Shown here one piece after another: positions 8,875 to 17,974 of a DNA stretch of 20,520 nt (the first letter of the stretch is position 1; the number at the start of each line of letters is the position of its first letter). The notes under the pieces were generated by a model. The model was not told the DNA's origin, made no database searches, and saw only the letters and a list, made by a program, of their open reading frames with translations. The DNA comes from Phytoactinopolyspora endophytica. Lineage in GTDB: Bacteria > Actinomycetota > Actinomycetes > Jiangellales > Jiangellaceae. The position numbers and the translations under genes were made by a program. The stretch covers positions 174,081 through 194,600 of the forward strand of contig NZ_ML142862.1 of NCBI RefSeq assembly GCF_004138495.1, in the 5' to 3' direction.

Positions 8875-8902
8875 GGAACCGGACGGTGGGCCGCGGTGTA
8901 GG
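8875..8902 (+). promoter_or_regulatory. ECF-type promoter upstream of the sigma gene
   Basis: GGAACC (8875-8880), a classic ECF -35, is followed after exactly 16 bp by TGTAGG (8897-8902). The same GGAACC-N16-TGTAG arrangement recurs at 10314-10340 before the secreted-protein gene. The repetition of both half-elements with identical spacing makes autoregulation by the ECF factor a good inference. Confidence 0.55.
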
Positions 8903-8944
8903 AAGAGTGGCACGGGCCGACGCCAGAGATCCGGGAGAGGGGTC

Positions 8945-9544
8945 GTTACGGACCGAGACGACGCCACCGACCAGACCATCATCGGGCGCGTCCGCGACGG
9001 AGACGCCGACGCGTACGCCGTGCTCGTGCGCCGCTACGCGGCCGAAGCCAACCGCGCCGCCGTCGTCAGTGGTGCCGGCGCGGACGCCGAGGACGTCGTT
9101 CAGGTGGCGTTCGTGAAGGCGTACCAGAGCTTGGACCGGTTCCGCGACGGCGCTCCGTTCCGGCCGTGGCTGTTGCGGATCGTCGTGAACGAGGCCAGGA
9201 ACGCCGTCCGGGCCGGACGGCGACGCGATGCCGCGACCGAGCGCGCCGCCTGGCTCGACGGCGTGTCCACCAGCGACGCCGATCCCGCCGCCGCGGCTGT
9301 GCACGCGGAGTCGCGTTCGGCGCTGATCGCCGCGCTGCGGCAGCTGCCGGAGGCGCAGCGGCAGGTGGTCGTGTGCCGGTACTTCCTCGACCTGGACGAG
9401 CGAGAGGCGGCCACGGTGCTCGGCTGGCCACGCGGCACGGTGAAGTCACGGCTGCATCGGGCCTTGACGCAGCTGCGCCGTGGGCTCGACGAGCAGCTGG
9501 GCGGGCAGGACGTGGCAGAACGGGAGGCCGAACATGAACGATGA
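8945..9544 (+). CDS. ECF RNA polymerase sigma factor (start codon non-canonical)
   Basis: An extracytoplasmic-function sigma factor that would direct RNA polymerase to GGAACC-type promoters. Region 2 begins DQTIIGRVRDGDADAYAVLVRRY and includes DAEDVVQVAFVKAYQSLDRF. Region 4 is LPEAQRQVVVCRYFLDLDEREAATVLGWPRGTVKSRLHRALTQLRRG, a typical helix-turn-helix. From 8945 the product has 199 residues. The oddity is the start: the conserved region 2.1 codons run upstream to VTDRDDATDQ, but between the aglA stop (8861) and GTG 9020 this frame has no ATG, GTG or TTG. A GTT (8945) sits where a GTG is expected, 2 nt after the purine run GGGAGAGGGG (8933-8942). The first canonical start, GTG 9020, would remove about 25 conserved residues. 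The anti-sigma gene overlaps the 3' end by 11 bp. Confidence 0.85.
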   Translation, partial: VTDRDDATDQTIIGRVRDGDADAYAVLVRRYAAEANRAAVVSGAGADAEDVVQVAFVKAYQSLDRFRDGAPFRPWLLRIVVNEARNAVRAGRRRDAATERAAWLDGVSTSDADPAAAAVHAESRSALIAALRQLPEAQRQVVVCRYFLDLDEREAATVLGWPRGTVKSRLHRALTQLRRGLDEQLGGQDVAEREAEHER

Positions 9545-10322
9545 CCCGCTCGACACCGAGCTGCGCGCTCTCGCCGCCGATCTGGACATCCCGCCCATCG
9601 ACGAGGTCGCCACCGCGACGGTGGTGATGGAGCGGATCGCGACGGCGGAGGCCGCCTTTGACTCCGTCCCCGCTCTCGGTCGCGCGGCTCGCCTTTCGGC
9701 CCGGGCGTCGACGGTCGCGTCGGCAGTCGCGCGGATGATGCGCACTCGGTGGCGGGCTGTCGTCGCGGGTTTGGTGGCCGTCCTTTTGGCTGCGGCGCTC
9801 ACCCCGCCGGTCCGGGCGGCCGTCGCCGAATGGTTCGGCCTGGGCGGGGTCGAGGTGCGGCCTGGTCCCGCCGTGCCATCCGCTCCCCCGCCGCCCGCGG
9901 TGGTGGGCGAGCTGGGCCTCGACGCCGCGGCCGGATTGGTGGACTTCACGCCCGCCCTCCCGGCGGCTCTCGGAGAGCCGGATGCCGTGGAGGTGGGCTC
10001 CGGTCGGTATCGGCTGTCGATGAGCTGGGTAGGCGCGGATGGGACCGTACGGCTGGACCAGTTCGCCGGCTCGCTTGCGGTCAAGTTCGTGCCGGATCCG
10101 GCCGAGCCGGTGGATCTCGGTGCGGTCGACGGCCTGTGGTTCGCGGATCCACACGCGCTCAACCTGTACGGCATGGAATCGGCAGACGAGCCGGAGATCG
10201 ACCGCTCCGCCGGGCCGACCCTGGTATGGATGGTTGGCGAGACGACGATACGGCTCGAGGGCGTGGCGGATCGGGATCGCGCGGCGGAGATAGCGCGATC
10301 CACGCTCGACGACGGAACCTGA
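9534..10322 (+). CDS. Single-pass membrane protein, probable anti-sigma factor
   Basis: A predicted membrane regulator that would hold the adjacent sigma factor inactive at the membrane. This is inferred from position and topology, not from a recognised domain. The ATG at 9534 has GGGAGG 6-7 nt upstream and overlaps the sigma gene end by 11 bp, so the two are translationally coupled. The product has 262 residues: an acidic N-terminal cytoplasmic part (about 1-70), one helix (about 73-90, AVVAGLVAVLLAAAL), the TPPVRAAVAEWFGLGGVEV segment seen in many actinobacterial ECF partners, and an extracytoplasmic domain to the C-terminus. There is no HxxxCxxC zinc motif in the N-terminal part, so it is not a ZAS-type anti-sigma. 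Confidence 0.75.
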   Translation: MNDDPLDTELRALAADLDIPPIDEVATATVVMERIATAEAAFDSVPALGRAARLSARASTVASAVARMMRTRWRAVVAGLVAVLLAAALTPPVRAAVAEWFGLGGVEVRPGPAVPSAPPPPAVVGELGLDAAAGLVDFTPALPAALGEPDAVEVGSGRYRLSMSWVGADGTVRLDQFAGSLAVKFVPDPAEPVDLGAVDGLWFADPHALNLYGMESADEPEIDRSAGPTLVWMVGETTIRLEGVADRDRAAEIARSTLDDGT

Positions 10323-10341
10323 ACGGACGCGGCAGTGTAGT
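10314..10341 (+). promoter_or_regulatory. Second ECF-type promoter, before the secreted-protein gene
   Basis: GGAACC (10314-10319) overlaps the end of the anti-sigma gene and is followed after 16 bp by TGTAGT (10336-10341). This is the same architecture as the element at 8875-8902, with identical GGAACC and TGTAG halves. The transcript would start about 10348, leaving roughly a 30-nt leader with GGAGG before ATG 10378. Confidence 0.55.
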
Positions 10342-10377: not shown

Positions 10378-11106
10378 ATGTCCCGTCCCGTCCGCGCCCG
10401 GATTCGGTCCATTGCCTTGTTGTTCGCTCTGGCGCTCGGTTTCGCGTTCCTGGCGCCGCAACCCGCCCAGGCGGGCGGGCCCACGAGCGTGCTGATCTCG
10501 TCGCCGTCGACGCAGACCACAGGATCGCTCTACGCGACCAGCCCGGATTACGATCTACTACTCGACGCGCTCGGCGGATTGAGTCCGCGGGCCGACCCCG
10601 AGGCGTCACAGTTCGCCGACACACCGGTGGGCCCAGGCGGCAACCAGGTCAACGTCACGTGGCTCATCCACGACGTGAGTGTGTGGCGGGTGGACCGCAT
10701 CGTGACAGACGACTCGGGCGATATCTGGGTGCACACGGAGGGTTCGATGTCCGAGCCGTTCGGCGCTGCCGTCCAAGGCGGCGGCCGGGAGACCGGTCCG
10801 GACGGCGTCTGGCACCGCTCGCCCCATCCCGAGCAGCTGCGGGCCCTCCTGGACGAGCTCGGCGTGCCCCTGTCCGACTCCACCACCGACGTCTTGCCCT
10901 CACCCGATCCGGCGAACGACGACGCCGAGTCTGTCGCCGGTAGGGACGAGTCCGGTGCCGATGAGTCGGCCGATACCCGGGCGGCCGCGCTCACCTCAGG
11001 TAACACGTCTCCCTTGCTGTGGGCGTTACCGAGCCTGGCGGTGGGCATCGCGGCCGGCATCGCCGCCGACCGTCGGCTACGCCTCAGACGTGTCCGTGGC
11101 TGGTGA
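10378..11106 (+). CDS. Secreted, C-terminally anchored protein of unknown function (ECF-linked)
   Basis: I do not recognise the family. The 242-residue product has a clear signal peptide (basic MSRPVRARIR, hydrophobic core about 12-26, likely cleavage after PAQA at 32). A roughly 150-residue extracytoplasmic domain follows, containing VNVTWLIHDVSVWRVDRI, then an acidic linker rich in Asp/Glu/Ser (about 173-205), one helix (about 212-231) and a very basic tail, RRLRLRRVRGW. It looks like a type I membrane protein displayed outside the cell. The ATG at 10378 has GGAGG 7 nt upstream. It carries its own GGAACC-N16-TGTAG promoter shared with the sigma gene, so it is the probable target of the ECF factor. 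Its 3' end overlaps the convergent tetR gene by 30 bp. Confidence 0.8.
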   Translation: MSRPVRARIRSIALLFALALGFAFLAPQPAQAGGPTSVLISSPSTQTTGSLYATSPDYDLLLDALGGLSPRADPEASQFADTPVGPGGNQVNVTWLIHDVSVWRVDRIVTDDSGDIWVHTEGSMSEPFGAAVQGGGRETGPDGVWHRSPHPEQLRALLDELGVPLSDSTTDVLPSPDPANDDAESVAGRDESGADESADTRAAALTSGNTSPLLWALPSLAVGIAAGIAADRRLRLRRVRGW

Positions 11107-16297: not shown

Positions 16298-17974
16298 TCA
16301 GTCCCGGGTGAGCTTGCGGTACGTCACCCGGTGTGGGCGGGTGGCGTCGCTGCCGAGGCGCTCGATCTTGTTCTTCTCGTAGGCGTCGAAGTTCCCCTCG
16401 AACCAGAACCATTTCGCCGGGTTCTCTTCGTCGCCTTCCCAGGCGAGGATGTGCGTGGCGATCCGGTCGAGGAACCAGCGGTCGTGTGACGTGATGACCG
16501 CACAGCCGGGGAATTCCAGCAGAGCGTTCTCCAAGGACTGCAGCGTCTCGACATCGAGGTCGTTGGTGGGCTCGTCCAGCAGGATCAGGTTGCCACCCTG
16601 CTTCAGAGTGAGCGCCAGGTTCAGCCGGTTCCGCTCGCCACCGGAGAGCACCCCGGCCGGCTTCTGCTGGTCCGGTCCCTTGAACCCGAACGCCGCGATG
16701 TAGGCACGGCTGGGCATCTCCACCTGGCCGACCTTGATGTAGTCGAGCTCGTCCGAGACGACCTGCCAGACGTTCTTCGTCGAGTCGATGCCACCACGGG
16801 TCTGGTCCACGTAGGACAACTTGACCGTGTCCCCGACCCGCAGGCTGCCGTCGTCCGCCGACTCGTCGCCCACGATCATCTTGAACAGCGTTGTCTTACC
16901 GACACCGTTCGGACCGATCACACCGACCAGCCCGTTGCGGGGCAGCGTGAAGGACAGGTTCTGGATCAGCGTGCGCTCGTCGAACCCCTTGGTGAGGTTC
17001 TGGGCCTCGACCACCACATTGCCCAGCCGGGGGCCCGGCGGGATCTGGATCTCGTCGAAGTCGAGCTTGCGCGCCTTGTCCGCTTCGGAAGCCATCTCCT
17101 CGTAGCGGTTGAGCCGGGCCTGCTGCTTGGTCTGACGGCCCTTGGCGTTGGAGCGGACCCACTCCAGCTCTTCCTTCATCCGCCGCTGCCGCTTGACGTC
17201 CTTCTGCCCCTCGACCTTCAAGCGGGCCTGCTTGTTCTCCAAGTAGGTGGTGTAGTTGCCCTCGTAGCCGTGGACGCGGCCACGGTCCACCTCGGCGATC
17301 CACTGCGCCACGTGGTCGAGGAAGTAGCGGTCGTGAGTGACGGCGACGACAGTGCCTGGATACTTCTCCAGGTGCTGCTCCAGCCACTGCACGCTCTCCG
17401 CGTCGAGGTGGTTGGTGGGCTCGTCCAGGAGCAGCAGATCCGGCTGCTCGAGGAGGAGCTTGCACAACGCCACCCGGCGACGCTCACCACCGGACAGCAC
17501 CGACACGTCCGCGTCGGGTGGCGGACAGCGCAGTGCGTCCATCGCCTGCTCCAATTGGGAGTCCAGGTCCCAGGCGTTGCGATGGTCGAGCTGTTCCTGA
17601 AGCTTGCCCATCTCTTCGAGGAGCTGGTCCGAGTAGTCGGTGGCCATCTTCTCGGCGATCTCGTTGAAGCGTTCGAGCATCTGCTTCGTCTCGGCAACTC
17701 CTTCCTGGACGTTGCCGAGAACCGTCTTGTCCGGGTTCAGCTCGGGCTCCTGAGAGAGGAAACCGACTGTGTACCCGGGGGTCAGGTAAGCCTCGCCGTT
17801 GGACGGCTGGTCCCAGCCGGCCATGATCTTCAGCACACTCGACTTACCTGCACCGTTCGGCCCCACCACGCCGATCTTCGCCCCGGGAAGGAACGACAGA
17901 GTGACGTCGTCGAGGATGACCTTGTCGCCGTGCGCCTTGCGCGCCTTGCGCATCACATAGATAAATTCCGCCAT
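16298..17974 (-). CDS. ettA: Energy-dependent translational throttle protein EttA (ABC-F)
   Basis: A soluble ABC-F ATPase that binds the ribosomal E site and couples entry into the elongation cycle to ATP/ADP levels. It has 558 residues, the usual EttA length. First ATPase: Walker A GPNGAGKSS (38-46), signature LSGGERRRVAL, Walker B LLLDEPTNHLD. Second: GPNGVGKTT, LSGGERNRLNLAL, LILLDEPTNDLD. Between them lies the charged linker KRQRRMKEELEWVRSNAKGR of the P-site tRNA interaction motif, and the EttA-type C-terminus RVTYRKLTRD is present. There are no membrane segments. The ATG at 17974 has GGGAG 4 nt upstream. A TAGGCT box (17990-17985) could be its -10. ssb lies 158 bp upstream in the same direction, and that gap shows only weak stems. 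Confidence 0.96.
   Translation of the reverse strand: MAEFIYVMRKARKAHGDKVILDDVTLSFLPGAKIGVVGPNGAGKSSVLKIMAGWDQPSNGEAYLTPGYTVGFLSQEPELNPDKTVLGNVQEGVAETKQMLERFNEIAEKMATDYSDQLLEEMGKLQEQLDHRNAWDLDSQLEQAMDALRCPPPDADVSVLSGGERRRVALCKLLLEQPDLLLLDEPTNHLDAESVQWLEQHLEKYPGTVVAVTHDRYFLDHVAQWIAEVDRGRVHGYEGNYTTYLENKQARLKVEGQKDVKRQRRMKEELEWVRSNAKGRQTKQQARLNRYEEMASEADKARKLDFDEIQIPPGPRLGNVVVEAQNLTKGFDERTLIQNLSFTLPRNGLVGVIGPNGVGKTTLFKMIVGDESADDGSLRVGDTVKLSYVDQTRGGIDSTKNVWQVVSDELDYIKVGQVEMPSRAYIAAFGFKGPDQQKPAGVLSGGERNRLNLALTLKQGGNLILLDEPTNDLDVETLQSLENALLEFPGCAVITSHDRWFLDRIATHILAWEGDEENPAKWFWFEGNFDAYEKNKIERLGSDATRPHRVTYRKLTRD

Follow-up and report, generated by a model that had tools for sequence, protein, structure and literature searches.

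Two questions are raised by a small gene cluster in Phytoactinopolyspora endophytica: whether two copies of one bipartite element around an ECF sigma/anti-sigma pair act as promoters of a single regulatory circuit, and from which codon the sigma factor is translated. We examined both in a 20,520-nucleotide stretch of DNA from this organism (hereafter, "the window") and in related actinobacterial genomes. The reading that we prefer, and that we consider likely on the comparisons described below, is an autoregulated ECF sigma/anti-sigma switch in which a second cognate promoter would drive a gene for a membrane-anchored surface protein and the sigma factor would be translated from a near-cognate start codon.

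Two promoter-like elements around a sigma/anti-sigma pair

The window contains two matches to GGAACC-N15-17-TGTAG and no more, each on the + strand with a spacer of 16; the chance expectation is 0.00 (100 shuffles). The first copy, P1 (8875-8901), has its -35 GGAACC at 8875-8880 and TGTAG at 8897-8901, with the conserved -10 half CGGTGTA at 8894-8900. The second copy, P2 (10314-10340), has its -35 GGAACC at 10314-10319 and TGTAG at 10336-10340, with the -10 half CAGTGTA at 10333-10339. A first-pass annotation of this DNA had described the same bipartite element twice, with no further copy in the window, and this proves exact, down to the spacer; the end points it gave, 8902 and 10341, were each one base too long. 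It had also placed the first copy before the sigma gene, where it does lie, and a second promoter at the anti-sigma stop codon. The P2 -35 is indeed embedded there, as it reads GGA ACC, the final two anti-sigma codons ahead of TGA.

Three genes belong to the cluster. The ECF sigma factor gene (8945-9544, + strand) encodes 199 aa when read from a proposed non-canonical start, GTT at 8945, to a TGA at 9542-9544; the protein matches PF04542 (region 2) and PF08281 (region 4) above cut-off and otherwise only related sigma models. The putative membrane anti-sigma factor (9534-10322, + strand, 262 aa) is encoded from an ATG within the sigma gene, the two genes sharing 11 bases. This protein is predicted to start with two helices and a long third one (59-88) that holds a hydrophobic stretch, followed by a mostly beta domain. 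Its N-terminus is conserved and it has one hydrophobic helix, as a putative sigma binder; the window protein contains no cysteine and hence no HxxxCxxC. The third gene (10378-11106, + strand, 242 aa) encodes a protein with a signal-like N-terminal helix, a conserved mature start AGGPTSVL, an alpha/beta domain, a C-terminal hydrophobic helix (212-239) and an Arg-rich tail. The first-pass annotation had called this protein secreted; since a C-terminal hydrophobic helix is present besides the signal-like one, the protein is probably a membrane-anchored surface protein, a membrane role that we read by eye. Neither the anti-sigma factor nor the surface protein of the window has a Pfam or NCBIfam match; DUF4245 was matched weakly by 2 of 32 aligned anti-sigma relatives, and none of 56 aligned surface-protein relatives gave a domain-model match. 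Elsewhere in the window, an ordinary EttA-type ABC-F protein is encoded on the - strand at 16298-17974 (TIGR03719, 887 bits, above cut-off).

Across the host genome (7.6 Mb, 94% complete), GGAACC-N15-17-TGTAG matched nine times, and the backwards-read control also matched 9 times. Five matches have a spacer of 15, two of 17 and two of 16, and the spacer-16 pair is P1 and P2. As the loose pattern is no commoner than its control, what distinguishes P1 and P2 is spacer 16 rather than the loose pattern.

Conservation upstream of orthologous clusters had been set beforehand as a test of the element, and the comparisons that follow bear it out. We searched 22 Jiangellaceae genomes for GGAACC-N16-TGTA and found a match in 21 of them, with 67 matches in total versus 32 for the backwards control. 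All 15 genomes with the third gene carry spacer-16 copies ahead of both that gene and the sigma gene, one each, and the seven genomes that lack the third gene have no such element pair by this search; in one Jiangellaceae genome, G012, the cluster is split across two contigs. We also scanned named genomes with the third protein and used the best 80 of 160 loci, mostly from Streptomyces. Among these best 80, a sigma gene is linked in 65, and both elements are present under the strict pattern in 63 of the 65; the two exceptions (L092 and L101) have GGAACG in the first copy. The rest comprise 13 loci with P2 and no linked sigma gene, some of them at contig ends, and two with neither. Left out of these promoter counts were the 14 loci with sigma relatives in family f17, together with genomes G028 and G202, none of which has a strict GGAACC element upstream.

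The position of P2 relative to the anti-sigma gene varies. In the 14 Jiangellaceae loci that show the region, the anti-sigma stop starts 6 or 9 bases inside P2 and GGA ACC is coding. Among 61 named loci, five (four Jiangellaceae and Actinopolymorpha alba) have a P2 that begins ahead of the anti-sigma stop; in the other 56, the stop precedes P2 by 7-1542 bases.

The conserved sites allow a sharper definition of the element. The three positions before TGTA, which the search had left free, are C, G and G in 49, 50 and 50 of 50 distinct P1 sequences and in 55, 54 and 55 of 55 distinct P2 sequences, while the base after TGTA is variable in both sets. We therefore write the element as GGAACC-N12-(G/C)CGGTGTA, with AAC present in the -35. 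TGTA stands at -10 in 105 of 105 distinct sites, these four bases having been fixed by the search itself. The final G of the -10 half given in the first-pass annotation, TGTAG, falls outside the conserved CGGTGTA. The sole P2 with CAG among the 55 is that of the window, one base off CGGTGTA at a near-invariant position. GGAAC is a common ECF -35 (PMC10012870, PMC8103513), and the SigE/SigH sites of Corynebacterium glutamicum include GGAACC-N16-CGTT (PMC10012870). As CGGTGTA lies in the register of these published sites, it appears to be a variant of the ECF -10. We found no description of the GGAACC-N16-TGTAG element in the accessible portions of openly licensed papers.

The start codon of the sigma gene

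From the stop codon ahead of P1 to sigma region 2.1, the window holds no in-frame ATG, GTG, TTG or CTG. We propose GTT at 8945 as the start, with GTC at 8942 or ACG at 8948 as alternatives. Before it lies a Shine-Dalgarno-like stretch, GGGAGAGGGG (8933-8942, + strand), a modest match to AGGAGG (4 of 6). The window is one case among many: an in-frame ATG, GTG or TTG between the -10 and region 2.1 is absent from 14 of 15 Jiangellaceae loci, 5 of 5 Kibdelosporangium-like loci, 1 of 3 loci of family f9, 2 of 4 of family f26 and the single Actinopolymorpha locus (23 of 28 overall). An in-frame upstream GTG precedes ATC in 2 of 3 f9 and 2 of 4 f26 loci, and the locus of J. gansuensis type (L072) has an in-frame GTG at P1+32. 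Aligned by eye, the proposed codon is ATC in 12 of the 15 Jiangellaceae loci; the three others have ATA, GTC and, in the window, GTT. Three Jiangella proteins at NCBI already begin at this codon; several others, including that of the window, are annotated shorter. Shine-Dalgarno matches in Jiangella are modest, and the Kibdelosporangium-like loci have space for only a few leader bases; like the GTG codons of L072, f9 and f26, these points weigh against the proposed start.

Some features of the alignment say less about the start than they might seem to. The proposed codon lies 18, 27, 33 or 36 bases from region 2.1; because that codon had been selected by eye from those in frame, the frame between the two counts as weak evidence. 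A third-position excess (13, 16 and 37 over 18 codons) belongs to region 2.1 and not to the codons that follow the proposed start directly, where variation is slight (2, 3, 3).

Streptomyces-type loci have a different arrangement. An in-frame GTG stands at P1+34 in 68 of 70, with the frame preserved over eight lengths; the exceptions are L100, a metagenome locus that was caught by the pattern and is counted among the 70, and L220. In L220, the G run between the P1+34 GTG and ATC is one G shorter, so that the frame is broken with the ATC intact, which may be genuine or an artefact of assembly. In 59 of the 70 loci, GAGGGG is preserved with an ATC behind it. Our codon tally placed 66 of the 70 (59 ATC, 3 GTC, 1 ACC and 3 GAG, the last a misregister), and four did not fit. 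The GTG at P1+34 sits at the likely transcript start; a leaderless message could begin at this codon, and Streptomyces may therefore start translation there. A conserved leaderless GTG was also considered for Jiangellaceae and rejected, given that the frame upstream varies there and that 14 of 15 loci lack the codon. A mini-ORF overlapping the Streptomyces start, seen by eye, was dropped, with several loci lacking it.

The most serious competitor to a near-cognate start leaves the promoters as described and has the sigma gene start canonically, either at a GTG inside the gene (window position 9020 or 9026) or at the P1+34 GTG of Streptomyces, with ATC or GTT being untranslated or ordinary codons. 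We consider this unlikely, though it has several observations in its favor: the P1+34 GTG with its preserved frame, an in-frame GTG about 19 codons past the aligned D in most Jiangellaceae loci, and the database entry for the window sigma factor (P0035), a protein of 172 aa that starts at an internal GTG with MRRYAAEAN. Such an internal start, however, would cost the protein the first helix of region 2, whose residues align with E. coli sigma-E, and in 5 of 5 Kibdelosporangium-like loci the first in-frame GTG lies deep in region 2, at codon 42 counted from the aligned D. Nor does the P1+34 codon carry over to Jiangellaceae, where that type of GTG is missing and the upstream frame is not kept; the distance from P1 to the proposed codon spans all three frames there, which speaks against a start further upstream.

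Among the more distant sigma relatives of family f17 (L223-L236), we read by eye an ATG in 7 of 14 loci, an unclear start in 2 and, in the remaining 5, an ACG at the same place behind a GAAGGAGT-like stretch; the ACG loci may be another example of a near-cognate start. In the accessible portions of openly licensed papers, sigR was the only ECF gene for which we found a non-canonical start, and we found no description of the start codon of the sigma gene studied here.

Unlinked genes, site counts and the probable cognate sigma factor

Comparison of genomes shows that the element precedes both the sigma gene and the surface-protein gene in several actinobacterial groups, even when the two genes are not adjacent. 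Five genomes, four of them from Kibdelosporangium and one that bears the label Rhodococcus rhodnii, have the third gene with its element but no close sigma gene within the fetched stretch. In all five of these Kibdelosporangium-like genomes, the sigma gene lies elsewhere, behind its own copy of the element, and is followed by an ORF that by eye resembles the anti-sigma gene. The genome labelled Rhodococcus rhodnii (NRRL B-16535; locus L111) is 12.4 Mb in size and has Kibdelosporangium-like neighboring genes, and its label may be wrong.

A class-wide pattern search matched 92 of 393 genomes at the correct spacing and 47 of 393 at one base more (spacer 17); the matches listed for this spacer-17 negative control include no cluster site. 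In family f19 (Streptomyces-like; 39 genomes, with presence of the sigma gene called at E up to 1e-36), the 12 sigma-bearing genomes have 1, 9, 7, 5, 2, 8, 11, 11, 8, 10, 11 and 8 sites, the counts of 1 and 2 being the low ones, and the 27 genomes without the sigma gene have 0-2 sites each, including a P1-like site in G155. The two low counts, the G155 site and the deviating base in the P2 of the window tell against the circuit that we prefer. With the same pattern, ten of the 15 cluster-bearing Jiangellaceae genomes have 2 sites, four have 3, and the window's own, with CAG in its P2, has 1. On these counts, most Streptomyces-like genomes with the sigma factor seem to have a larger regulon.

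Twenty of the Streptomyces-like sites were fetched. In three of them (L241, L248 and L258), the element lies about 60 bases before a glucose/sorbosone dehydrogenase-type gene, whose product (PF07995, 222-243 bits) has a lipoprotein-like start and is a likely regulon member. A site with a near-identical spacer (GGAACCTTTCT...) recurs in several Streptomyces-like genomes (L245 and L252); the ORF downstream of it resembles the opposite strand of a different gene, and the transcript is perhaps antisense or has a long leader. At L246, a site lies 32 bases ahead of an ORF with FAS1-like dehydratase and ChsH2 OB-fold domains.

These data bear on which sigma factor would use the elements. Another ECF sigma factor could read both, the adjacent sigma gene being merely a target; GGAAC is, after all, widespread as an ECF -35 (PMC10012870, PMC8103513), and one locus, L137, has a second ECF-like gene, 39% identical, just past the third gene, so that its neighborhood is not wholly sigma-free. 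We regard this as very improbable, as the number of sites tracks the presence of the sigma gene in the 39 f19 genomes, the site pair is missing from the seven Jiangellaceae genomes that lack the third gene, and the element is kept at both genes where they are separated. Chance resemblance or coding constraint, for which one could cite the coding position of the P2 -35 in the window and the equality of the loose genome count with its control, is scarcely credible against a pair that is conserved in relatives and that keeps spacer 16 and CGG where P2 is noncoding (56 of 61 loci with an anti-sigma gene).

A proposed switch and its relation to known systems

The circuit that we favor, with the sigma factor of the cluster reading P1 and P2, would operate as follows. 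The membrane anti-sigma factor would hold the sigma factor until an outside signal releases it, and the freed sigma factor would then transcribe its own operon from P1 and the surface-protein gene from P2. In Jiangellaceae and the Kibdelosporangium-like genomes, the sigma factor would be translated from a near-cognate ATC, ATA, GTC or GTT, codons that are normally rejected by IF3. Such a start would yield less sigma than anti-sigma factor, as shown for sigR/rsrA (PMC5472188), and a sigma level below that of anti-sigma would in turn stop the positive feedback loop from setting itself off. We infer activation, anti-sigma binding, an outside signal, use of the proposed start codon and control by IF3 from conserved sequence features and from these precedents.

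A broader proposition is that an ECF lineage has kept the near-cognate start (AUC, AUA, GUC or GUU) across several actinobacterial families, that IF3-controlled initiation is general and old, and that a leaderless GUG adds a longer form in Streptomyces; here, the arguments for and against seem to us evenly balanced. If true, IF3-controlled initiation would be a way to hold an autoregulated sigma factor below its anti-sigma factor rather than a peculiarity of sigR. In Streptomyces, the leaderless GUG would then give an N-terminally longer form by a different initiation route, with AUC kept behind GAGGGG.

The promoter class defined here, GGAACC-N12-(G/C)CGGTGTA, is directly searchable, and it ties one regulator to two families that have no Pfam model, one of anti-sigma factors and one of surface proteins. 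Should the proposed start codon be correct, this would be the second sigma factor after SigR to be dosed by start-codon fidelity, far beyond Streptomyces, and whether positive feedback loops are generally made safe in this way would become testable.

Several known systems share parts of this arrangement. The SigE-type sites of C. glutamicum (GGAACC-N16-CGTT; PMC10012870) have the same -35 and spacing, with CGTT where the present sites have (CGG)TGTA. As in ordinary ECF operons (PMC8103513), the sigma factor has regions 2 and 4 only, a putative anti-sigma gene is adjacent, AAC is present in the -35 of its own promoter, and autoregulation would be positive, to judge from the conserved P1. Unlike in those operons, TGTA replaces CGT at the -10 with a fixed CGG before it, a third gene has its own copy of the element, and the sigma start is unusual. 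The gene for IF3 itself, infC, has a start codon of the same class (AUU/AUC; PMC5472188) and encodes no sigma factor.

The closest parallel is SigR-RsrA of Streptomyces, in which a GTC start codon and IF3 set the sigma/anti-sigma ratio (PMC5472188). The non-canonical start of sigR is conserved as GTC, with GTT in 2 of 34 species, and has been misannotated, and both IF3 repression and an excess of anti-sigma factor have been demonstrated experimentally (PMC5472188). The window sigma factor is not SigR, given that it scores 71.7 against the SigH_actino model TIGR02947, below the cut-off of 251.55, and that its partner has no cysteine. The present system further differs in that ATC prevails in Jiangella, the promoter -10 is CGGTGTA, and the anti-sigma factor is a predicted membrane protein. 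What it would have in common with SigR-RsrA (PMC5472188) is a non-canonical sigma start, a translationally linked anti-sigma gene and misannotated starts.
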